The translations under genes were made by a program, and so were the position numbers. DNA of 64,000 nt from Powellomyces hirtus (lineage: Eukaryota > Chytridiomycota > Chytridiomycetes > Spizellomycetales > Powellomycetaceae): assembly GCA_025526995.1 (NCBI GenBank), contig JAHLKG010000029.1, positions 62,001-126,000 of the forward strand. The letters run 5' to 3'. The notes below the pieces were generated by a model. That model ran no database searches. It worked only from the letters and a program-made list of their open reading frames with translations, and had not been told where the DNA came from. Positions 11,376 to 58,095 of this stretch are shown in pieces. The stretch's first letter is position 1. Each line of letters starts with the position of its first letter.

Positions 11376-12107
11376 ATGAACGTCGACCGCAACTACTCCC
11401 CTTCCCCAGACACCACCACTACCACCACTACGGCCAAGCACCGTACCTATCAACAGCTGCAGAAGGCAGCAGCAAAGCAGGTCCAGCTCGCCGGGGTGAG
11501 TGAAATCTGATCGTACCCGTTGGTTGTGGTAATCCTCTGACACCGTCTCGCAGGAGCCGACTGTCCACTACAATCTGACCCAGGAGGTCGAGGTCGCCAC
11601 CAGCACCTGCTGGAAGTGCGACCTGTTCAAGGGTGGCAAGATGTTCCTCAGGGAATGCCACCATATGATCTGTCGGCCATGTATCGTGGTCTTGGCCAAT
11701 GCCACAGTGCATGTCTCATTGTTATGGGGCTTTCCGATGTCGTTTGGTACTCACTGTCTCTTTCCCCTCCACTTTTTGTAGGACACTGGCCCTCTGGGCC
11801 AGTTTGTGTGTGGCGCCAGGCAGTGTGGGAGGATGCTGCACTTCGGTGCAATCTCCATCTGCTGCGTCCATGACGCCTGCCCCTCCACCGTGGCGGACCT
11901 CCGTTGGCTCCCCTGCGTGCACGTCAACTGCATGGCGCACATTTGTGCATAGGTCATCATCTCCCTTCAATTGTACGCTTACCTTACCGGCTGATCCATT
12001 TCTTCTGTAGCAAAATGAACATTGCCAATTTTACGCCGCTCCAATGCGGCATGGGGGAGCGCTGCCACGGGGCCAAATGCCTCTTCTCCTTCACCTGCAT
12101 CAACTAG
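11376..12107 (+). CDS. G-II antisense RING-like/CCCH-like zinc-finger gene, copy R1 (splice site damaged)
   Basis: Four exons: 11376-11495, 11554-11706, 11782-11948 and 12011-12107, with introns of 58, 75 and 62 nt. The product has a short Thr-rich N-terminus (TTTTTTTAKH), then CWKC-x11-CHHMICRPC, a second cluster (FVCGARQC, ICCVHDAC, LPCVHVNCMAH), and a C-terminal CGMGERCHGAKCLFSF resembling a CCCH finger with Phe in place of His. The C-x2-C-x11-C-x-H-x2-C-x2-C spacing fits a RING-like fold; I cannot say whether it is a ligase. In this copy the donor of intron 3 reads AT where the others have GT, so translation would stop at 11950-11952 and lose the last exon. The gene opposes the element's own strand. 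Confidence 0.7.
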
Positions 12108-36388: not shown

Positions 36389-36850
36389 CTACACCGCAAT
36401 TGCGGAACCCGAAGCAATGCCTCCCAAAGAGGATGGGCCTGCCCCTCCTCCATCATCCTCATCGCTTGAGGGTGAGCGTCGGCTTGAAGAACCCGATGGT
36501 CCCTCCAACTCCTCGGCTGCCCCCTCCTCCTCCTCCTCTTCCTCATCATTATATGGAGCTTCACCCTCCCGGATGTCCCACATCCTCTTCACCTCTGCTA
36601 CAGACTTCTTGTCTGCAGCCCTCTTCTTCGCCTGGGCAGTATCCTTGCCCTTCCCAACCGCCAGCTTCCGGCTCCGCCGGTCCTCTAGAATGGACCTCAG
36701 TCCATCAAGCGTCCCGGTCGCCCGTGCGCGACCCAGCGGCATACCAGACCTCGCCCGGTCTTTCACCCGGTCTTTCGCCTGCTCGATGTGACGTTCCAGG
36801 ACCCCTTGACGGTCCTTGCGGTGGAACTGTCGGGCGTGCGCTGCCGACAT
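36389..36850 (-). CDS. Antisense ORF in the Copia-3 3' region, unknown function
   Basis: 153 codons from a true ATG at 36850 on the strand opposite to the element, between the end of pol and the 3' LTR. The first 100 residues are rich in Arg, Lys, Glu and Ala and look helical (ERHIEQAKDRVKDRARSG, AQAKKRAADKKSVAEVKRM). They are followed by an acidic run (DEEEEEEEGAAEELEG) and a Ser/Gly/Asp-rich end. I do not recognise the family. The sense-strand frames here are Pro/Ser-rich and less protein-like. Downstream on the antisense strand GTAAGC near 36364 could be a splice donor. It might be a captured gene parallel to the G-II one, or chance. Confidence 0.45.
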   Translation of the reverse strand: MSAAHARQFHRKDRQGVLERHIEQAKDRVKDRARSGMPLGRARATGTLDGLRSILEDRRSRKLAVGKGKDTAQAKKRAADKKSVAEVKRMWDIREGEAPYNDEEEEEEEGAAEELEGPSGSSSRRSPSSDEDDGGGAGPSSLGGIASGSAIAV

Positions 36851-46432: not shown

Positions 46433-47172
46433 TCAACCAAGCTTTGTGAAGGAGAATTGGCACCGATTGCCGTGGCACCGGTCGCCCAACCCGCACCGGA
46501 GGGGGGTGTAATTTGCCACGTTCATCTTGCTGCGAAGGGAGCTGAGTTAGTCAGGTAAGACAGCAGCAGGCCGAAGAGTACTACTTACGCACGGACGTGG
46601 CCCATGCAGTGGAGGTGGTTGCATGGGAACATGCGGAGGTCCGCTCCGACATGGTTGCAGCCAGCGAACTGGCACTTGGCGGGGATGGCCGCAAAGAAGA
46701 GGACCCGGTCGCAGTGGGGGGCGCCGCACGTCAACTGGCCCTGAGGGCCGTCGTTCTGGAAAGCAAAGGAACAAAGGAACCACACCGTTAGGGAGACATC
46801 AGGCCGCCTCTCAGCAAAGGGGGAACATACCGTGTCGTCGGCCGCCGCCACGATGCAGGGCCGGCACACCAGATGGTGGCATTCCGACATGAACATCTTG
46901 CTCTTGCGGAAACGGCGGCATTTCCAGCAAGAAGGCAAGTCAGCCGACCTCTCGGGGGTGGACTTTTCATGGACCGAAGGGTCCTGTAGGTAACAAAGGA
47001 AGACGGGCAACATGAGACGAGCTGCCACAACCGAGGATGAGTACCGACCCCTACTTACCCGGGCGGGCTGGGCCCGCTTGGTTGCGCCCTTTGCGAGTTG
47101 TTGGGCGGGCTGGCGCTTGCCCGCGGTGGTGGTGTCGGAGGGGAGAGGAGAGTTGTTGGCAATGTCGGCCAT
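46433..47172 (-). CDS. G-II antisense zinc-finger gene, copy R2 (intact, diverged)
   Basis: Exons 47172-47059, 46983-46831, 46755-46589 and 46529-46433 (114, 153, 167 and 97 nt), joined by introns of 75, 75 and 59 nt with GTAAGT, GTATGT and GTAAGT donors and AG acceptors; predicted 176 residues. Exons 2-4 have exactly the lengths found in R1 and R3. The protein keeps the metal ligands (CWKC-x11-CHHLVCRPC; TCGAPHC; CQFAGC; FPCNHLHCMGH; CGLGDRCHGNRCQFSF), but most other positions differ from R1 and R3. It runs antisense to G-II.d, converging on pol. Its role is unknown; a nucleic-acid-binding or ubiquitin-related zinc protein is possible. Confidence 0.8.
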
Positions 47173-47174
47173 GT

Positions 47175-47226
47175 TGTATGTAGGTATGTATGTATGTGTG
47201 TGTGTGTGATGTGTGTGTGTGTCGAG
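47175..47226. repeat. GT/GTAT microsatellite upstream of R2
   Basis: TGTATG and (GT)n runs just before the R2 start codon. It lengthens the 5' leader of R2 relative to R1 and R3. Confidence 0.8.
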
Positions 47227-47901: not shown

Positions 47902-49277
47902 GCATCCTTGTGGGTCATCTTGTTCAGTGCCCGGTAGTCCATGCAGCAGCGTAAGCCGCCGTCCTTCTTTGGGGCAAATAAGACGGGTGCGCCCCACGGG
48001 CTGCGAGAGTGTGAGATCCAACCCTTGTCCATAAAGCGCTGCATCTGTTGGCCGAGCTTGTCCAATTTGTCCCAGCTCAAATGTCGGAGTGGCTGCATCA
48101 CGGGCTTCGAGCCGGGTTTGAGCCAAATGGTGAAATTGTCCTCACCTCGATCCGGAGGCATGCCTGACTGCTCGGTGAATAATGTCGTGACATATTTCTC
48201 TAGGGTCGGTCGGAGTGGATGGTGGGCCGCCAGCGCCTCTAGCAGGTCCTCTTGATCTGCCGCCTTGGCTTCGGCGTTGGTGTAGCGTCGCTCCTCCAAG
48301 ATTGCCCTCTTCTTGGCGTCGACTGTCCGTACAAATTGAGCCTCTGCAACTGGAATTGCATCTACGATGTGTACCTCAAAGACTCCAGTGATCTTGTTGG
48401 TCTGAGAGTATCTGGGTAGATAGTTGAGGAAGCTTTCAGGGTAGTTGACTGAGCAAAACAACGAAGTAACTTAATCCTGCTCTGTTTGGAGAAAAAGAGA
48501 AAAGTCCCACCGATATATTAAGTATGTAAGGAAAACTACTTTTATCGGAGATGATCACGTGGGTTCACGTGATCGCGTGATACGCCCTGCAATGGCGCAG
48601 TTGTGACTCGATGACAGAGTCTGTACACGCTAACAGATCTCGCCCTTCTTCATCAAGCGTTTCCATTGCTTGGCTGTGTAGATTACCTCTGCATTGAGTG
48701 CTGGCTTCGCCGGCTGGAATCTGCAGGGCCGTATCTCTTGTGGGGAGAGCAGGTGGGCTGCGCATGCGGACGGTGCTTCCCAATGGCGATTAGTCGATTT
48801 GGCTCGAAGGCTGAGGGTCTGGCCGTCGTGGTAAAACGTCATCGTTGGGAAGCCTTCTTGATCGAAAAGCCCTCGGACGTCCAATCCCAATATGAACGGC
48901 AAGCCGAGTATGACATCAACCCTAATCGGCACGACCACGAACAGTACTGTATCCTCCCGGTAGATGATCTTCTCCTCGGTGAACACCGAGAGGTCCCCAC
49001 AGGTCATCTTTGTTGCCCCGTAGTTTCCCGCTCTGTCACCCCACCGGACCTCCAGCGGAGTTGGAGAGGTGTAGGTCCGGAGGCCGTGCTTGGCTGCCCA
49101 AGTGTCGCTGATGATCAGGGTGTTACACCCGGTATCGATTAGGATGCGGGCAAAGTGCCCTTGTATCTTTCCTTGAACCACAAATGTCTTCCTGTGGATG
49201 CGGGGTCCCGGCCTGTCCGTGGGGATCTTGTCTTGCATCCGGGGTTGGGGTACTGAGACGGTGCAAACGTTCAGCAC
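47902..49277 (-). pseudogene. G-II.b pol N-terminal half, interrupted and truncated
   Basis: Begins in the -1 frame overlapping the gag stop (VLNVCTVSVPQ; no ATG). It gives protease ARILIDTGCNTLII, a linker and RT up to [19 protein letters not shown], where a foreign LTR replaces the remainder. A Copia-3 solo LTR lies at 48395-48635. No stops within the two parts. Confidence 0.88.
48395..48635 (-). repeat. Copia-3 solo LTR in G-II.b
   Basis: 241 bp, TGTTGGTCTGAG...CACGCTAACA on the plus strand, with a perfect GATCT duplication (48390-48394 and 48636-48640). Confidence 0.93.
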
Positions 49278-50509
49278 CCGGGGCGAAAATCCAAGCTGTT
49301 GACGGAGCCCCCGTCGCTGACCGCGTCGTCCCCGGGCTCTTCGGTGATCTCTACAGGGGCGGCGAACGTTCTATGCTCACCGGTCTTACCTCTACCTGCT
49401 GAGCACCCACGGGCATAGTGCCCCTTGCCTCCGCAGTTGAAACATTCGTTGCGTTCACGATGTTCGTTATAGGTGATATGCTCACGGCGTTCGTCGTAGA
49501 TGGTGCGCTCACGGCGTGAAATCCCTTGGTAGTTGTCCATACCGCGTGTGGGACGACCTGAGCCATAGGGGGTGTGGCGTCCCCTTTCTCGTGCTTGATA
49601 GTTCCCTCGATGTACCTGAGCCGGCTGGACTGCAGCGTACTGACGTCTCCTCCCGTCGGGGGTTACCCGCGCAACATCATCCGCATAGCCTCGAATCCTG
49701 TAGCATAGTTGAGCTTTGTTCTGTAGCTCGGTGATCGGGATCTCGGCGCCATTATTCCTCATGATTGCGGCATAGCAGTGGTCCCGAATGCGCTGGCCGA
49801 CATGGTTGGTCGAGAATCCCGTCAAGAAATAGTCACGTTCTTGCCTTGGGGTAAGCCGCTCCTTGTCGTCGAGCGTCACGATCTGGGCCCGAAGGGTATT
49901 GAACTTGGCAATATACTCCGATATGCTATTGGTGAAAACCAACCGCTTCATCTTTGCTTCTGCGGTGTTTCGTAAGTTGGCGGGGTAGAAGCAGATGCGG
50001 AGGATCCTTGTGAATTCTTCCAATGTTGTGGGCTGGTCGCCGGCATCTCTGAGCATTTGCCACCATTCGTCGGCGGTTTCCTTGAGGTACCCCGAGATGT
50101 GGTCGACGTCCCGGTGGTCCGTCCTGAAGTCGGTTGCCTCAAGGTAGCGCGTGTGGACCTTCAGGAACTCATCAACCTTCGACACCATTTCTTCACTGTT
50201 CCCTTTTCCGTCGAAGTGTGTCAGCTGCTTGCGAAGGTTCTTGCGGCGTTCCTTCTCAGCTTGCATTCGTGCGCGGTTTTCTTCCGCCAGGATGATGTCG
50301 ACTTGCGGTGTTGCAACTGCTGGTTGGACTGGAGTCGGAATCCTTGAGAGAAGGGCTTCGACGCGGGCCTCTCCCATTGCAATCTGTTCCTGCAGTAGAC
50401 GTTGGGTCTCCGCCAATTGTGCAGCCAACATTGCGACGGGGTTGTTGGTCGGTGTGTCGACTTCGGGTTCTCCTACTGCCATTGGGCTGTTCCTGGTGCT
50501 ACGTGCCAT
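49271..50509 (-). CDS. G-II Gag, complete
   Basis: 412 codons from ATG 50509 to stop 49271. Short N-terminal coiled-coil-like stretch (MLAAQLAETQRLLQEQIAMG), Arg/Lys-rich helix near residue 85-95, capsid with DEWWQMLRDAG and RLVFTNSISEYIAKFNTLRAQ, basic Arg/Tyr/Gly-rich linker, zinc knuckle CFNCGGKGHYARGC near residue 365, acidic tail EITEEPGDDAVSDGG. Pol overlaps in the -1 frame at the stop. The gene is intact but its pol is broken. Confidence 0.9.
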   Translation of the reverse strand: MARSTRNSPMAVGEPEVDTPTNNPVAMLAAQLAETQRLLQEQIAMGEARVEALLSRIPTPVQPAVATPQVDIILAEENRARMQAEKERRKNLRKQLTHFDGKGNSEEMVSKVDEFLKVHTRYLEATDFRTDHRDVDHISGYLKETADEWWQMLRDAGDQPTTLEEFTRILRICFYPANLRNTAEAKMKRLVFTNSISEYIAKFNTLRAQIVTLDDKERLTPRQERDYFLTGFSTNHVGQRIRDHCYAAIMRNNGAEIPITELQNKAQLCYRIRGYADDVARVTPDGRRRQYAAVQPAQVHRGNYQARERGRHTPYGSGRPTRGMDNYQGISRRERTIYDERREHITYNEHRERNECFNCGGKGHYARGCSAGRGKTGEHRTFAAPVEITEEPGDDAVSDGGSVNSLDFRPGC

Positions 50510-50537: not shown

Positions 50538-51184
50538 TGTAATAATACTAGGTCCGTTGCCAGATTCTAGTCTTCTATTCGGGAATTCCCTATGTCTAAT
50601 TCTACTGTCAGATGTCTAAGTCTTGAATACGCCCTCGTCGGAGTATTCCTACTTTTCTTCTGGACCGCGGGGCGGTCCCGGTCACGTGATGGCCATCCAT
50701 GGCCATCCCTAAGGTCTAGTACCCTTTGGGATGCTGACGCTAGCATCCATCTTGCGCGGGGCCCTTCCCAATATTGGAGATATCGGCACTTCCAGTACTT
50801 TATCGGAATTGCAGAGGATTGGCCGAATTCGATGTGGCCTCCAGTATACTTCGTAAAGGGGGGTTTACAGAGCTCTTCTGTGATGCAGTTGACGATGTAG
50901 CGTTGTCAGATGCACGGAGATGTAATGTATGTGAATGTATTTCTTGTCTTAAAGTCTTATCGGTAATGTCTTGCTTCGAGCGTTCTAATCTGCTTTTTCT
51001 CCAATCACGTGATCACACGTGATCCAATTCAGCTCTTAGCGTTACCGGTATGGTGGTCACGCGTTCTAGTTGGAGAATCCAAGTAAGGATCTAATGTAAA
51101 GACCAAACGTTGAGTACGCAAGTCTCAACATTCCAATACCCGACGCGTATCTAGGCTTAGGTTGGCGAGCCATGCCTCATTACA
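50538..51184 (-). repeat. G-II.b 5' LTR, split by a solo LTR
   Basis: G-II LTR in minus orientation at 50538-50771 and 51139-51184, about 275 bp once the 367-bp insertion and one target copy are removed. The right edge ...CCTCATTACA is followed by GTGCT. Confidence 0.9.
50772..51138 (-). repeat. Copia-2 solo LTR
   Basis: 367 bp with TATTGGA...TCCAATA ends, in the G-II LTR. The flanks are CCCAA (50767-50771) and CCCGA (51139-51143), a target duplication with one mismatch. It confirms the non-standard LTR ends of this family. Confidence 0.92.
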
Positions 51185-54100
51185 GTGCTCAGCAGGTAAA
51201 GGTAAGACCGGTGAGCATAGAACGTTCGCCGCCCCTGTAGAGATCACCGAAGAGCCCGGGGACGATGCGGTCAGCGACGGGGGCTCAGTCAACAGCTCGG
51301 ATTTTCGCCCCGGGTGCTGAACGTTTACACCATCTCAGTACCCCAACCCTGGATGCAAGACAAGATCCCCACGGACAGGCCGGGACTCCGCATCCACAGG
51401 AAGACATTTGTGATTCACGGGAAGATACAAGGGCACTTTGCCTGCATCCTAATCGATACCGGGTGTAACACCCTGATCATCAGCAACACTTGGACAGCCA
51501 AGCACGGCCTCTGGACCTACACCTCTCCAACTCCGCTGAAAGTCCGATGGGGCGATAGAGCAGGAAACTACGGTGCAACGAAGATGACCTGTGGGGACCT
51601 CGCGGTGTTCACCGAGGAGAAGATTACCTACCGGGAAGACACCGTACCGTTCATGGTCGGACCGATCAGGGTCGATGTCATACTCGGTTTACCATTCATA
51701 TTGGGATTAGACGTCCGAGGGCTTTTTGACCAAGAGGGCTTCCCAACGATGACGTTCTACCACGACGGCCAGACCCTCAGCCTTCGAGCCAAATCGACTA
51801 ATCGCCATTGGGAAGCACCGTCCGCGTGCGTAGCCCGCCTGCTCTCCCCACGAGAGATACGGCCCCGCAGATTCCAGCCGGCAAAGCCAGCACTCAATGC
51901 AGAAGGAATCTACACGGCCAAGCAATGGAAACGTTTGATGAAGAAGGGCGAGATCACTGGAGTCTTCGAGGTACACATCGTAGATGCAATTCCAGTCGTA
52001 GAGGCTCAATTCGTACGGACGGTCGACGCCAAGAAAAGGGCCATCTTGGAGGAACGCCGCCACACCAACGCCGAAGCCAAGACGGCAGATCAAGAGGACC
52101 CGCTAGAGGCACTGCCGGCCGACCACTCACTCCGACCAACCCTAGAGAAATACGTCACGACGGTATTCACCAAACAGTCAGGCATGCCTCCGGACCGAGG
52201 CAAAGACAATTTCACCATTCGGCTCAAACCCGGCTCGAAACCCGTGATGCAGCCACTCCGGCACTTGAGCCCTGACGAATTGGACGAGCTCGGCCAGCAG
52301 ATGCAGCGTTTAATGGACAAGGGTTGGATCTCACACTCTCGCAGCCCGTGGGGCGCGCCCGTCCTATTTGCCCCAAAGAAGGACGGCGGCTTACGCTGCT
52401 GCATTGACTACCGGGCACTGAACAAGATGATCCAAAAGGATGCCACGCCGCTTTCAAAACTCTCGGAACTACGCGACAGGCTTGTCAACATGCGGGTATT
52501 TACCGCGATCGATATCCGCGACGCGTATCACTGCATCATGATTCGACCGGAAGATAGGGAGAAAACAGCGTTCCGAACACGTTTTGGGCATTTCAAATAC
52601 AATGTTCTACCTTTCGGCTTAACTAATGCACCTGCTACATTCCAGCGACTAACCAACAAACTCTTGGGCGACAAGTACGACGCTTATGTGATCTCATACC
52701 TCGACGATATTCTCATTTTCAGCACCGACATGAGTTCGCACATTCAGCACGTCGACAAGGTTCTCAAGACCCTGGCGGAACATCGCCTTCACGTCAAACC
52801 CAGCAAATGTCAATGGGCGGTTGACGAAGTCGAGTTCTGCGGCCACCGAGTCGGCAAGGATGGCCTGAGTATCGCCCCCTCCAAGGTGACCGCGGTCCGG
52901 GAACGACCTCGCCCAACCAACTCGCTGGAGCTCCTTAGCTTCATGGGCCTCGTCAACTATGTCAAGGAATACATCCCCGAGTATGCACAGATTGCCCTAC
53001 CATTAACGAATCTGCAATCCGGCAACCGCCCATGGCAGTGGGGTGACGAGGAAGATCAAGCGTTCAATCGCTTAAAGGAATTATGCTCCTCGGCACCCAC
53101 CCTAGCGTACTTTGACCCAGCGCTCGACACCTACTTGTTCACGGACGCATCGGGCTACGCCTACGGCGGATGGCTGGCACAGCCGGCCAAAGGGGATTTC
53201 CCTTACCCTCACCCACTATCAACCACCAAATCGGGCTTAGCCAACCTCCCGCAACTTCGCCCGGTGACATACTAGTCCCGCAAGATGCAACCCGCCGAGA
53301 CTCGATACCCCGTGCATGAACAAGAACTGCTGGGACTAGTCAAATCCATACGCGCCAACCGCCATTACCTCATCGGCCGCCCATTCCGCGCGTTTGTTGA
53401 CCACAAATCCCTGATCTACCTCCAGGAACAACCCCACCTGTCACGTCGCCAAGCAGGCTGGGTCGAGTTCCTCCAACAGTTCGATTTCTCAGTGGAATAC
53501 CTCCCCGGCACATGGAATTTGATCGCCGACTTCCTCAGTCGCGACCTGACTTACGCCCCCAAGTGCGCGACCTGCCAGGCCAAGATCGACGTGGTCACCG
53601 CCATTGTGTCGACGGAGAAGCCCGTCACGACGCACATGCCGACCGATGCGGACTGGACCCAAGCGCTCGCATCGGATGATTTCGGCCAACACATCTTACT
53701 AACCATCAACAGTCCACCGGAGAACCTATCCGGCCATGCACGTCGATTCCGGACAATGGACTTCCCTCCGCACCGATTCTTGATGTACCATGACCGTCGG
53801 TACGTCCCCGACAGCTTGCGGGGGCCACTCCTTCAGCTTCATCACGACTCCCTCGCAAACGGTGGTCACTCCGGTGTCCAACAAACGCTGGCCAAACTTC
53901 TGGAATTGTACTATTGGCCCCACATGGAACGTGATGTGTACCAATATGTCCGCACCTGCCCTACATGCCAACGCCACAAGCGCGCCACACCAATCGGCTT
54001 CCTCCGCAGCTTACTGATCCCCGACGCTCGTTGGCAACAAGTCGGCATGGATATATTCTTCCCCACATCAGGCTCTAAGGGGGGGGAACCTCGGGTAGAG

Positions 54101-55243
54101 GCCGACATGACAAAGAACCCTTCGCACCACACCGGCGAGAGACTGACCAAGACGGCGGATGCCGTACTCCTCATCGTTGACTACCTTTCATGCCGCGTGA
54201 TACTTCTACCTACTAACACACGCGCTACAGCTCAGGAGACGGCTCAACTCTTTCTGGAACAGGCATTCCGCCACACGGGGTTACCCCACACCATTGTGAG
54301 CGATCGGGACCCCAAGTGGCTATCGGAATTCTGGCGGTACCTTATGCGGGCACTCGACGTCAAGCAGGAACTCTCGTCGGCACGACACCAACAGACCGAC
54401 AGCAAGGCGGAGAACGCCATCAAGACGGTCAAGGGAATCATGGGCCCCTTTCTTGACTATGCCGGCTCCAACTGGAAGAGTTTACTCCCCACACTCGAGT
54501 ACAACTACAACCGAACGCCGCAGACGTCGACGGGACTATCCCCTTTCGAGATTGATCTAGGCAGCGTTCCCCGGGTACCGAACCAATGGGTAGCACCTAA
54601 CCCCGGAGAGATGATAAGGCAATCGGCACGAACCGCCATAGAAAGACTGATTAAGGAATTCGCCGACGTGAGTCGCATCGTGCAGCAACGGCTCCGAGAC
54701 GCACAGGACCAGCAGGCAAAGTACTATGACCGCAAGAAGCACACGGAAGCATACCGAGAGGGTGACAAGGTCTTACTCCATCGTGAGGGTATTGCGATTA
54801 CCAGCGTCACCACAAGGAACAAAAAGCTGGCTGAGCAATGGATTGGACCATTCACAGTACGCGGCAAGGGCCCGCATCCTGACACCTACGAGCTCGAACT
54901 ACCCAGGGAGTTCACCGGGTTGCACCCAGTCTTTCATGTCAGCATTCTGAGACGTTACCACGACCCGGGTGGTACCCCGTACAGACAGGTCACCGCCCCG
55001 CCTGAGCCCGAGAAGGACGAAGACGGTCAGGAGACCTACCAAGTGGACAAGATCCTAAATGCCAGATGGCACGGGAACACCGAGCAGTTCTTAGTCAAGT
55101 GGACAGGTTACGACAACACTCAGAACACGTGGGAGCCGTATGCACACGTGAAGGGATCGACCGCACTGGAAGAATGGCTCCGGGAGCACCCCGGAGAGGA
55201 CCGCGGCCAAAGGCTAGCAGCCAGGCGACGTAAGAGAACCTAG
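51185..55243 (+). pseudogene. G-II.e gag end and pol with one amber codon
   Basis: The gag tail (EITEEPGDDAVSDGG) ends in TGC TGA; pol overlaps in the -1 frame from about 51314. Pol: protease CILIDTGCNTLII, RT ([35 protein letters not shown]), RNase H (YLFTDASGYAYGGW), integrase (HHDSLANGGHSG, CPTC, IVDYLSCRV, SDRDPKWL, ARHQQTDSKAENA), chromodomain (YQVDKILNARW, FLVKWTGYD, NTWEPYAHV) and a basic tail RGQRLAARRRKR. One TAG at 53273-53275 replaces the Trp of VTYWSRKM in RNase H; the frame is otherwise open for about 1310 codons. Confidence 0.92.
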
Positions 55244-55311
55244 ATAGCGAGCTGTAACGTAAATTAACAAGAGACATGCTACTTGAGGTAGAGGACATTA
55301 TAGTGCGAGAT

Positions 55312-56335
55312 TTCGGCGTCGTTGGACGATGGCCGAAGGCTGCTGGGCAGCATACCTCGCTGGGCGAGATGCCGGCATTGTTGGACAATGGCCGAAGGCT
55401 GCTGGGCAGCATACCTCACTAGGTGAGATGCCGGGATCGCTGGGCGATGAGCCGACGGCTTGCCGATGCAAGGTGACCGGCACCAGATTTGCATGGCAGC
55501 GTACCTTGAGACCCGCGGGGACCATGGCCGTGGTACATACCTACGCGAAGGGGAAGAGAGGGCTTCGGCCAAGATACCGGCATCGTTTGACAATGGGCCG
55601 AAGTCCGCTGGGCGGCATACCTCACTGGGTGAGAAGGGTGATGCTGGGCATCGACCGGCTGCCGATGCAAGGTGACCGGCACCAGATTTGCATGGCAGCG
55701 TACCTCGAGACCCGCGGGGACCATGGCCGTGGTACATACCTACGCGAAGGGGAAGAGAAGGGCTTCGGCCAAGATACCGGCATCGTTTGACGATGGGCCG
55801 AAGTCCGCTGGGCGGCATACCTCACTGGGTGAGAAGGGTGATGCTGGGCATCGACCGGCTGCCGATGCAAGGTGACCGGCACCAGATTTGCATGGCAGCG
55901 TACCTCGAGACCCGCGGGGACCATGGCTGTAGTACATACCCATGCGAAGGGGAAGAGAAGGGCTTCGGCCAAGATACCGGCATCGTTTGACAATGGGCCG
56001 AAGGTCACTGGGCGACATACCTCGCTGGGCGAGATGCCGGGATCGCTGGGCGATGAGCCAAAGACTGCAAGGCAGTAGACCTCATGAGGTGAGATGCCGG
56101 CATTGTTGGACGATGGCCGAAGACTGCGAGGCAGTAGACCTCACGAGGTGAGATGCCGGCATCGTTGGACGATGGCTGAAGGCTGTTGGGCAGCATATCT
56201 CGCTGGGCGAGATGCCGGGATCGCTGGGCGATGAGCCGAAGACTGCAAGGCAGTAGACCTCACTAGGTGAGATACCGGCATCGTTGGACAATGGCCGGGG
56301 AACCGCCGGGCAGTCGTCCCAACGGGGAAGTGTGA
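55312..56335 (+). repeat. Palindrome array of G-II.e
   Basis: About 1 kb of tandem short palindromes. Examples: GCTGC-TGG-GCAGC at 55339, CTCGC-TGG-GCGAG at 55356, CATTG-TTGGA-CAATG at 55376, CTCAC-TAG-GTGAG at 55415, ATCGC-TGG-GCGAT at 55436, CTTGC-CGAT-GCAAG at 55459. Centres are 17-22 bp apart. Three form a unit of 59 bp. A larger unit of 199-200 bp (starting at 55472, 55671 and 55871) repeats three times. Confidence 0.88.
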
Positions 56336-56562
56336 TGCAGGGCATCTACCATGAGCACCATAGCCGGGAGGAGGCCGAGTGACATTGGACACAGCGGACG
56401 CATACGAAATGCTACAAGGCTCAAAGGAGCACAGCGATGAGAAGGCAAGTATAGCGATGAGATTTTGGTACTGAATTTGATTACGGCCCGAGGGCCAGGC
56501 CCCAAGGGAGCAACAGGACGAAATTATGTACATGAAAAAGGGAAAAAGGGGGGGAAGACCAA

Positions 56563-57296
56563 CTAGTTGATACGGGTGAATGAGAAGAGGCATTTTGCCC
56601 CGTGGCAGCGCTCCCCCCTGCCGCATCGGAGCGGAGTGAAATTCGCAATGTTCATTTCGCTATGGGAGAAATGGATCAGCCGGTAAGGTAAGCGTATAAT
56701 CGACGAGAAGAGATGACTTACGCGCGAATGTGCGCCATGCAGTTGACATGGGCGCAGGGGAGCCAGCGGAGGGCCGCCACGGCAGAGGGGCAGGCGTCAT
56801 GGACGCAACAGACCGGGATTGCACCGAAGTGCAGCGTCCTCCCGCACCGGTCGACACCACACACAAACTGGCCCAGAGGGCCAGTGTCCTACAGAAGGGA
56901 AGGAGAGAGAGAGGAAATGAGTACCAAACGACACCGGGAAGCCTCATAACCAGCGGGAACGTACTGTGGCGTCGGCCAAGGCCACGATACATGGCCGACA
57001 GATCATGTGGTGGCATTCCCCGAGGAACATCTTGCCACCCTTGTGCAGGCCGCATTTCCAGCAGGTGCTGGTTGCGACCACAACCTCCGGGGTCGAATTG
57101 TAGTCGACGGTCGGCTCCTGTGAGACGGCGTAAGGGAATTACCGCGACCGATGGGAACAGTCAAGACTTCACTCACCCCGGCGAGCTGGACCTTCTTCGC
57201 GGCTGCCTTCTGCAGCTGTTGGTTGCTACGGCGTTTAGCCGTGGTGGTGGTGGTGGTGGTGTCGGGGGACGGGGAGTTGTTGCGGTCGACGTCCAT
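56563..57296 (-). CDS. G-II antisense zinc-finger gene, copy R3 (intact)
   Basis: Exons 57296-57177, 57117-56965, 56888-56722 and 56659-56563 (120, 153, 167 and 97 nt); introns of 59, 76 and 62 nt with GTGAGT, GTACGT and GTAAGT donors and pyrimidine-rich acceptors ending AG. Predicted 178 residues. Thr-rich N-terminus; CWKC-x11-C-x-H-x2-C-x2-C; a second Cys/His cluster (FVCGVDRC, CCVHDAC, LPCAHVNCMAH); the last exon CGRGERCHGAKCLFSF looks like a CCCH finger lacking its His. It is close to R1 and distant from R2. It is transcribed towards pol, with the palindrome array between the two stops. Confidence 0.82.
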
Positions 57297-57368: not shown

Positions 57369-57704
57369 GCTCGTCCAGGCTGGGAACGCTCGGCAATTCA
57401 GGTGTCAGTGTTTCATTCCCTACGAAGCGCAGCAGATGTTACTTATCAGATTTTGCATGGAGAAAACTAGTCGTGAGTCATTTAGGGCCCCTGCGACGAG
57501 AAAATAGACTTTTCGACGAATTCGCGCCCTACGAAGGGCGGAGACTACCCACCGGAGGCTACCGCGACGCGACCCACACCAGGGCCGCCTCCCCAGCCTC
57601 ATCTTCCCACAACCACGTCAGCATCCGTTCAACCGCAGCTGTTCGGCTTAGGCAAGCTTCGCCTCGCTGAAGAGATTCGAGCCTAAGAGATAGTCGCGAA
57701 TCTA

Positions 57705-57712
57705 AGGGGGGT
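57705..57712 (+). other. G-II polypurine tract
   Basis: AAGGGGGG abutting the 3' LTR, present at the same place in G-II.d and, reversed, in G-II.a. It is the likely plus-strand primer. Confidence 0.65.
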
Positions 57713-57986
57713 GTAATGAGGCGTGGCTCGCCAACCTAAGCCTAGATACGCGTCGGGAAGGGCCCCGCGCGAGATGGATGCTAGCGTCAGCATCCCGAAG
57801 GGTACTAGACCTTAGGGATGGCCATGGATGGCCATCACGTGACCGGGACCGCCCCGCGGTCCAGAAGAAAAGTAGGAATACTCCGACAAGGGCGTATTCA
57901 AGACTTAGACATCTGACAGTAGAATTAGACATAGGGAATTCCCGAATAGAAGACTAGAATCTGGCAACGGACCTAGTATTATTACA
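57713..57986 (+). repeat. G-II.e 3' LTR (274 bp)
   Basis: TGTAATGAGGCGTGG...TATTATTACA, followed by AGCAC and inverted gag sequence. Near the centre it carries ATCACGTGAC, the reverse complement of the site in G-II.a. Confidence 0.92.
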
Positions 57987-58095
57987 AGCACCCACGGGCA
58001 TAGTGCCCCTTGCCTCCGCAGTTAAAACATTCGTTGCGTTCACGACGTTCGTTATAGATGATGTGCTCGCGGTCTGAGATCCCTTGGTGGTTGTC
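57987..58095 (-). pseudogene. G-II gag fragment (knuckle region), inverted
   Basis: About 110 bp of gag from the zinc knuckle region upstream on the minus strand (CFNCGGKGHYARG), starting exactly where the gag tail at 51185 leaves off and sharing GTGCT with it. It is cut at 58095 by the G-III LTR. Confidence 0.85.

Follow-up and report, generated by a model that had tools for sequence, protein, structure and literature searches.

We report that a Ty3/gypsy chromovirus of Powellomyces hirtus carries, on the strand opposite to pol, a conserved gene interrupted by three introns and subject to purifying selection. The gene was identified in three element copies, termed R1, R2 and R3, within the window (the whole stretch of DNA that was analysed, 64,000 nucleotides), and the family comprises at least 89 loci, combining a conserved three-intron gene on the opposite strand with putative signals of its own and selection at the protein level. 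Based on the data presented below, we consider it probable that this is an accessory gene of the chromovirus, which would form its own spliced transcription unit, encode a RING-like product acting in trans and have been exchanged as a cassette between element lineages.

The host element is a Ty3/gypsy chromovirus

The domain order as well as the LTR, PBS and PPT features identified the element carrying the antisense gene as a Ty3/gypsy chromovirus. Its pol is arranged in the order PR-RT-RNaseH-INT with a C-terminal chromodomain, and gag contains a CCHC motif. Matches to Retrotrans_gag, RVT_1, RT_RNaseH, Integrase_H2C2, SH3_Tf2-1 and Chromo exceeded the Pfam cut-off, and those to zf-CCHC, rve and Asp_protease_2 stayed below it. 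The gag domains were taken from an adjoining copy (49271-50509, minus strand), because R3 is devoid of the 5' part. Five copies with both LTRs had a length of 7.9-8.9 kb, the longest of which (L023) contains an extra LTR. The LTRs of ~275 bp exhibit TG..CA ends with an identity of 89.5-97.8% between the 5' and 3' LTR of the five full-length copies, four of which show a 5-bp target-site duplication, the fifth agreeing at 4 of 5 letters. The PBS reads TGGTAGCACCAC and the PPT is G-rich, AAGGGG(GG). In a protein search with the integrase half, the closest proteins were those of P. hirtus with up to 91% identity, the best unlabelled match reaching 45%.

R3 resembles a self-integration product (window positions 50538-51184 and 57712-58072): on one side, gag at 51185 directly follows the TG terminus of an inverted LTR; on the other, inverted gag begins at 57987 next to the CA terminus of the 3' LTR, with an overlap of 5 bp between both gag junctions.

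The antisense gene consists of four exons

In R1, R2 and R3 alike, the gene lies antisense to pol, just inside the 3' LTR (Table 1). Reading the three copies bore out the four exons and three GT-AG introns proposed by a first-pass annotation of this DNA, including the damaged splice site of R1, as well as the spliced product of 178 residues for R3. The same annotation had described one gene in one place, always opposite to the element; place and orientation stand, but not the single version, as R2 carries a second type (type B) with ~54% protein identity to the R3 gene (type A).

Table 1 Features of the antisense gene and its host element (window coordinates).
Feature	Position	Strand	Description
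R3 antisense gene, type A	56563..57296	-	ATG to stop; 178 aa product
R3 exon 1	57177..57296	-	120 nt; Thr-rich, then basic N-terminus
R3 intron 1	57118..57176	-	59 nt; GT-AG
R3 exon 2	56965..57117	-	153 nt; RING-like half C-x2-C-x12-C-x-H-x2-C-x2-C
R3 intron 2	56889..56964	-	76 nt; GT-AG
R3 exon 3	56722..56888	-	167 nt; C-x4-C, C-x4-C, C-x-H-x2-C-x2-H
R3 intron 3	56660..56721	-	62 nt; GT-AG
R3 exon 4	56563..56659	-	97 nt; C-x5-C-x4-C tail and stop
TATA-like box GCCTTCAAAA	57361..57370	-	74 bp before ATG; pattern in 53/55 copies with full upstream region
Conserved upstream block ATGAAACACTRACACC	57401..57416	-	putative upstream activating site; 49/55 copies
Putative 3' processing signal, TGTACATA-type	56525..56533	-	downstream of stop; 53/59 copies
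R2 antisense gene, type B	46433..47172	-	intact; exons 114/153/167/97 nt
R1 antisense gene, type A	11376..12107	+	R3-like layout; third donor GT -> AT, otherwise open
R3 pol, first part	51314..53275	+	protease-like and reverse transcriptase
R3 pol, second part	53285..55243	+	RNase H, integrase, Tf2-type SH3, chromodomain
R3 tandem repeats	55305..56297	+	59-bp and 200-bp units, between pol and antisense gene
R3 polypurine tract	57698..57711	+	GAATCTAAGGGGGG
R3 3' LTR	57712..57986	+	TGTAATGA...TATTATTACA

Two features of the introns vary between copies. The donor of intron 3 is changed from G to A in seven of 59 copies (R1, L012, L016, L023, L024, L044 and L048). In R3 and R2 this donor is preceded by C, forming a CpG, and the codon fits yielded a kappa of ~6-8, which suggests that dead copies lost the donor through CpG decay. 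In 12 of 39 type B copies, namely R2 (46588-47172, minus strand) and 11 others, the reading frame stays open through introns 1 and 2, so that an unspliced reading of 195-201 aa is also possible.

Copy number and placement in the genome

Surveying the assembly (29.26 Mb in 60 contigs), we detected 20 R1/R3-like loci by blastn and 69 R2-like loci by tblastn, their sum of 89 being a lower bound because only the best candidates were scored. Two of the R1/R3-like loci, L025 and L026, were assigned to a third type, C. Apparent segmental duplicates are found among the copies, e.g. on C2 at 1.61 and 1.62 Mb, and the number of independent insertions is therefore smaller than that of loci.

The placement was assessed by DNA searches with pol ends and spacers, scoring the best 40 of 97 and the best 40 of 92 candidates, those most similar to R3. 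At 34 of these 40 pol 3' ends the gene lies antisense within 4 kb, at a distance of 0.7-1.4 kb; one further end has a sense neighbour alone and five have none within 4 kb. The gene adjoins 38 of the 40 spacer segments and is antisense in all 38, whilst of the other two, one sits where a contig ends, next to an exon-1 match (C4:76-189), and one is ~2 kb from a gene. The first-pass annotation would have counted absence of the gene from most full-length elements, and hence an accident of one lineage, as a refutation; on the 40 best pol ends this was not the case.

The antisense gene is conserved and under purifying selection

Close reading covered the full set of 20 A/C loci and, among the 69 B loci, 39 that comprised the best-ranked hits and some divergent copies. 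The ATG, an uninterrupted frame and the six splice dinucleotides are all kept in 35 of the 59 copies, 10/20 for A/C and 25/39 for B, where the intact fraction may be biased upward since most of the B copies were picked for their high rank. The usual stop codon is retained in 33 of these 35, with L054 and L058 reading through; broken copies amount to 10/20 (A/C) and 14/39 (B). For the codon and splice tests the truncated copies L024, L026, L050 and L053 were left out, and L025 (type C) was omitted from the A-only tests.

The codon models yielded omega values of 0.436 for 17 A copies, 0.323 for 37 B copies and 0.341 for all 55 rows, alongside 0.406 for the pol 3' part (18 rows). Neutrality (omega = 1) was rejected in each case, with 2dlnL values of 39.3, 136.0, 224.7 and 100.3, respectively. 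Wrong frames of the exon letters resulted in omega values of 1.155, 2.054, 1.196 and 2.328, and the low value of reverse-complement frame 1 (0.413) is expected because this frame shares its third positions with the true one. Pairwise NG86 values were in the range of 0.23-0.49 for 14 pairs. Codon-position counts provided weaker evidence, with 52/59/78 between A and B (p = 0.057, a single test) and p = 0.028 and p = 0.007 for the variable columns of A and B, respectively.

Variation at the splice dinucleotides amounted to 4/204 in type A and 7/444 in type B, compared to 191/2882 and 313/6696 in the intron interiors. Type A intron interiors are more variable than exons (6.6% vs 4.0%), whereas in type B they vary about as much as exons (4.67% vs 4.54%) and fall short of the third codon positions (6.48%), the exon-intron contrast thus being valid for A and not for B. 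Both types share one exon architecture despite their ~54% protein identity. Furthermore, the GenBank P. hirtus model DFJ77DRAFT_512327 (P0002), which may be an ab initio prediction, equals the spliced product of L011 on C15 letter for letter; a second GenBank model (P0003) deviates in exon 3, where it leaves the four-exon structure beyond residue 105.

Short exons and the low-complexity Thr and Pro stretch of exon 1 are what a non-coding open stretch with chance splice-like motifs might also display. Such an accident is barely credible in view of the omega values, the conservation of the splice sites, the one exon architecture in two types ~54% identical and the independent GenBank model. As a separate candidate we considered a sense-strand reading frame over the gene span, which was not supported, the longest open stretch per frame having a median of 60-132 aa in A and 82-114 aa in B; the wrong frames were read on spliced letters, making them an indirect test of such a frame.

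Introns in sense genes of retroelements tend to be lost, because the element passes through a spliceable RNA. Among the 55 copies spanning all three introns, none has lost an intron, and the four shorter ones are truncated copies. This fits descent through sense RNA only and the earlier suggestion that antisense introns can survive reverse transcription.

Conserved signals flank the gene

Upstream of the gene, the TATA-like consensus GCCTT(C/T)A(A/C/G)AA is located 73-121 bp before the ATG in 53 of 55 copies, and beyond it the block ATGAAACACT(A/G)ACACC is conserved in 49 of 55. The TATA-like box resides in the internal region of the element, between the polypurine tract and the ATG and outside the LTR. 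Within the 64-kb window, each of the three signal patterns, including the one downstream of the stop, occurs once on the plus and twice on the minus strand, matching the expectation for three genes. With the conserved TATA-like box and the TGTACATA signal, the antisense gene looks, as judged from its sequence, like a complete transcription unit.

These features are consistent with a mechanism in which the element would be transcribed and reverse-transcribed from sense RNA, and an internal antisense promoter, with the TATA-like box between PPT and ATG, would drive a pre-mRNA. The host would splice the three short spliceosomal introns from this antisense pre-mRNA, which would end at its own 3' signal before reaching the pol-side repeats. 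With the splice signals being antisense, the sense genomic RNA would remain unspliced there, and every new copy would inherit the introns.

A (CA)n/(CATA)n run is situated between a pyrimidine-rich tract and the ATG in six aligned B copies (e.g. L028, and positions 47173-47220 of the window) and is absent from five aligned A copies and the C copy.

The gene and the element backbone have discordant histories

Type A and type B genes share ~63% of their exon and ~47% of their intron letters, with ~54% protein identity between the products (R3 as A reference), whereas the element around them is for the most part 82-96% identical. For R3 compared to the B copies, we obtained 61-69% in the exons, 46-54% in the introns, 66-72% in the 104 bp before the ATG and 77-79% over the 82 bp following the stop, as opposed to 91-96% for repeats and LTR and 82-95% for the greater part of the spacer. 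Save for two stretches adjoining the gene, the backbone segments were in the range of 82-96%, and the drop in identity spans approximately from the TATA-like box to the 3' signal. The pol 3' part of R3 and R2 is 95.9% identical. The reverse pattern was observed between R3 and R1, both type A, with 87-90% in the exons and 73-90% in the backbone segments.

Type C served as an outgroup. Its spacer and LTR are equally distant from both types (73.6-74.9% to A and B alike), whereas its gene shares 72% with A and 60-61% with B. Likewise, the introns share 63.5-64.9% between A and C and 45-48% between A and B, and NG86 dS values are 0.71-0.80 for A-C and 0.88-0.97 for A-B. Faster protein evolution alone as the origin of the A-B divergence was rejected, as the introns (45-48%) diverge beyond the exons and the outer flanks are kept at 82-96%. 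Since faster protein evolution would leave the introns untouched, the cassette was replaced as a unit. The identity profile thus indicates that a remote homologue has taken the place of the putative transcription unit, so that similar backbones now bear either type A or type B; the incoming cassette presumably originated from another element lineage.

In a quick spacer and LTR tree, 17 A and 36 B copies were parted by one branch, and one exchange suffices. Frequent shuffling between A and B is not supported by this split. Upon addition of C to the spacer and LTR tree, the B-type L049 was placed among the A rows, corresponding to 2 changes, with 26% of the bootstrap trees requiring 1. AU tests on the polarity and number of exchanges rejected nothing (p 0.35-0.38). 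The tree of a short downstream segment gave 3 changes, and holding A together was not rejected (AU p 0.508).

The A/B exchange constitutes a natural experiment, with similar backbones bearing two very different cassettes. Should the cassette interpretation be true, antisense spliceosomal introns would enable a retroelement to retain a gene of normal eukaryotic build. A further-reaching reading would see in the gene an interchangeable cassette for counter-defence or control that diverges fast, present in distant versions per lineage and replaceable as a whole in the manner of phage accessory genes; we regard this as possible but rather doubtful.

The predicted product is RING-like

Aligning four A/B products revealed 13 common Cys/His residues (C59, C62, C75, H77, C80, C83, C101, C106, C119, C124, C136, H138 and C141). 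C159 and C170 are also common to the four, and H144 and C165 are each absent from one. The first six ligands fit a RING half with the spacing C-x2-C-x12-C-x-H-x2-C-x2-C, and together with the ECHHMICRPCI core this resembles RING finger proteins such as PCGF5 and RING2. In contrast to these, the product stays below all Pfam cut-offs and its next pair is C-x4-C, where a RING exhibits C-x2-C. RING families were the main consistent profile matches, with a best Pfam E of 0.010, which is below the cut-off. A profile search of the PDB returned PCGF5 as the best match (E = 0.017), and a single-sequence search three matches with E of 0.25-6.2, none of them RING by name. AlphaFold yielded a mean pLDDT of 36.6 for P0002 alone and 32.3 for the unspliced B reading frame with 12 relatives, rendering the models unusable.

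Of the motifs initially assigned to the product, the RING-like one is hinted at by these sub-threshold profiles, with a spacer of x12 instead of x11, and the CCCH-like tail fell. A CCCH zinc finger has the form C-x-C-x-C-x3-H, with three Cys and a final His; R3 reads C159-x5-C165-x4-C170-x3-F, and none of the four A/B products has a His there. From the ligand pattern, we call the product RING-like and no more.

The ~178-residue RING-like product would probably bind zinc and most likely act in trans, perhaps in the nucleus, helping or tuning the element by controlling its promoter or by relieving it of silencing by the host. A nuclear or ubiquitin-linked role is a tentative guess of ours, drawn from the RING-like core and from the analogy to Grande and HBZ.

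The main rival to a helping function is self-limitation, in which repression by the protein or by the antisense RNA would hold the copy number of the element low, much as HTLV-1 HBZ down-regulates the 5' LTR. Passages of one source report that antisense retroviral proteins down-regulate the sense promoter (PMC10186651), and the position of the TATA-like box implies transcription toward pol. We nevertheless consider self-limitation unlikely, as selfish copies should lose a repressor easily, yet the omega of the gene is about that of pol.

Listed database matches carry Powellomyces labels

A search with an A/B profile against 5.8 billion proteins, for which matches must share exact words, resulted in three matches at E <= 10, all of them labelled Powellomyces. 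A profile search of the spliced product had been suggested by the first-pass annotation; this one and a second protein search gave Powellomyces-labelled matches alone. The three profile matches, drawn from exact-word candidates by database search, include no Botrytis, Grande, Retand or brtn protein. Searching viral contigs by tblastn gave no relatives, in a collection from which records near the P. hirtus genome may be absent.

The gene has the look of an ordinary fungal-type one, including an upstream box, introns and a 3' signal of its own, as would also be expected if an intron-bearing host gene had been captured by chance and were carried along as a passenger, its conservation inherited from its cellular past. 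This origin is very unlikely: the profile search among 5.8 billion proteins found no host homologue, although distant ones sharing no exact words could be missed, omega is low within A and within B, i.e. after the spread in the element, and the gene is present at 34/40 pol ends.

The sole match of one protein search was P0001, annotated as the 'oncoid' of Powellomyces chytrid fungus MELD virus 1, which raises the question whether a MELD (Polinton-like) DNA virus is the proper owner of the antisense gene, which would have moved between virus and retrotransposon. We judge this a remote prospect, since the oncoid corresponds to the unspliced exon 1-3 reading frame of a type B gene, introns included, and falls within type B diversity (95-96% to the best genome matches). 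Moreover, the Oncoid class is, in the statement of its authors, defined on short motifs alone (PMC11071296, in the passage concerned), and the simplest reading is an element copy, or a piece of one, inside or beside the viral contig. No protein of the MELD virus 1 record was among the matches listed in the pol search. The Polinton polymerase profile PF03175 gave 0 matches in the genome, but its controls gave none either, making this search uninformative. With the gene viewed as part of the chromovirus, these matches suggest that the GenBank 'viral oncoid' and two Powellomyces 'hypothetical proteins' are retrotransposon genes.

Comparison with known antisense genes of retroelements

Antisense genes located in the interval from pol to the 3' LTR are of an already known kind, according to passages of PMC7264820. 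These list antisense additional ORFs in this interval (aORF-3R) in maize Grande (gene23), rice RIRE2, Silene Retand and bean PvRetro13, and ascribe to Grande gene23 an upstream promoter of its own (PMC7264820). In about half of the recent Retand elements this interval likewise contains tandem repeats, as stated in parts of PMC7264820 and PMC11963269. The P. hirtus gene matches the aORF-3R, as these passages characterise them, in position, antisense orientation, occurrence in most copies and a conservation similar to other element proteins (PMC7264820, PMC11963269): its omega is 0.32-0.44 vs 0.406 for the pol 3' part, and it is found at 34/40 pol ends and 38/40 spacers. It differs in that the aORF-3R passages concern plant elements, Retand being a non-chromovirus, with TRP28 or SMC domains in place of a RING-like one. 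Moreover, the P. hirtus gene has three introns, and none is described in the aORF-3R passages of PMC7264820 and PMC11963269.

Among fungi, the Boty-like gypsy element of Botrytis carries the antisense gene brtn between pol and the 3' LTR (Zhao et al. 2011, as cited in passages of PMC7264820 and PMC8365987). As described there, both cases involve an antisense gene at this place in a fungal gypsy element; the host of Boty is an ascomycete. The hbz and APH genes, hbz being that of HTLV-1, are likewise antisense near the 3' LTR and expressed as spliced mRNA in the account given by passages of PMC10186651, to which the conserved splice sites of the P. hirtus gene would correspond. Unlike in P. hirtus, where the putative TATA-like box is in the internal region and an additional LTR promoter may exist, the hbz promoter lies inside the 3' LTR, and HBZ is a bZIP protein of a retrovirus, compared to a RING-like product of a chromovirus.

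The portions consulted of a fungal chromovirus survey mention additional ORFs and never the word antisense (PMC2864245), and a 2020 review calls, in one passage, for looking for antisense and spliced transcripts (PMC7264820). Among the matches listed for literature on Powellomyces retrotransposons and on spliced or intron-bearing antisense accessory genes, no title or abstract opening describes the gene. The first-pass annotation knew of no named gypsy family with such a gene; the antisense placement as such is known from Grande, Retand and brtn, and what is new is the combination of three introns, a RING-like product and cassette exchange. With this family, the role of antisense accessory genes of LTR elements becomes testable in a fungus.

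Elsewhere in the window, a 153-aa open frame (36389-36850, minus strand) overlaps open frames of the plus strand where a copia-like element has its 3' end.
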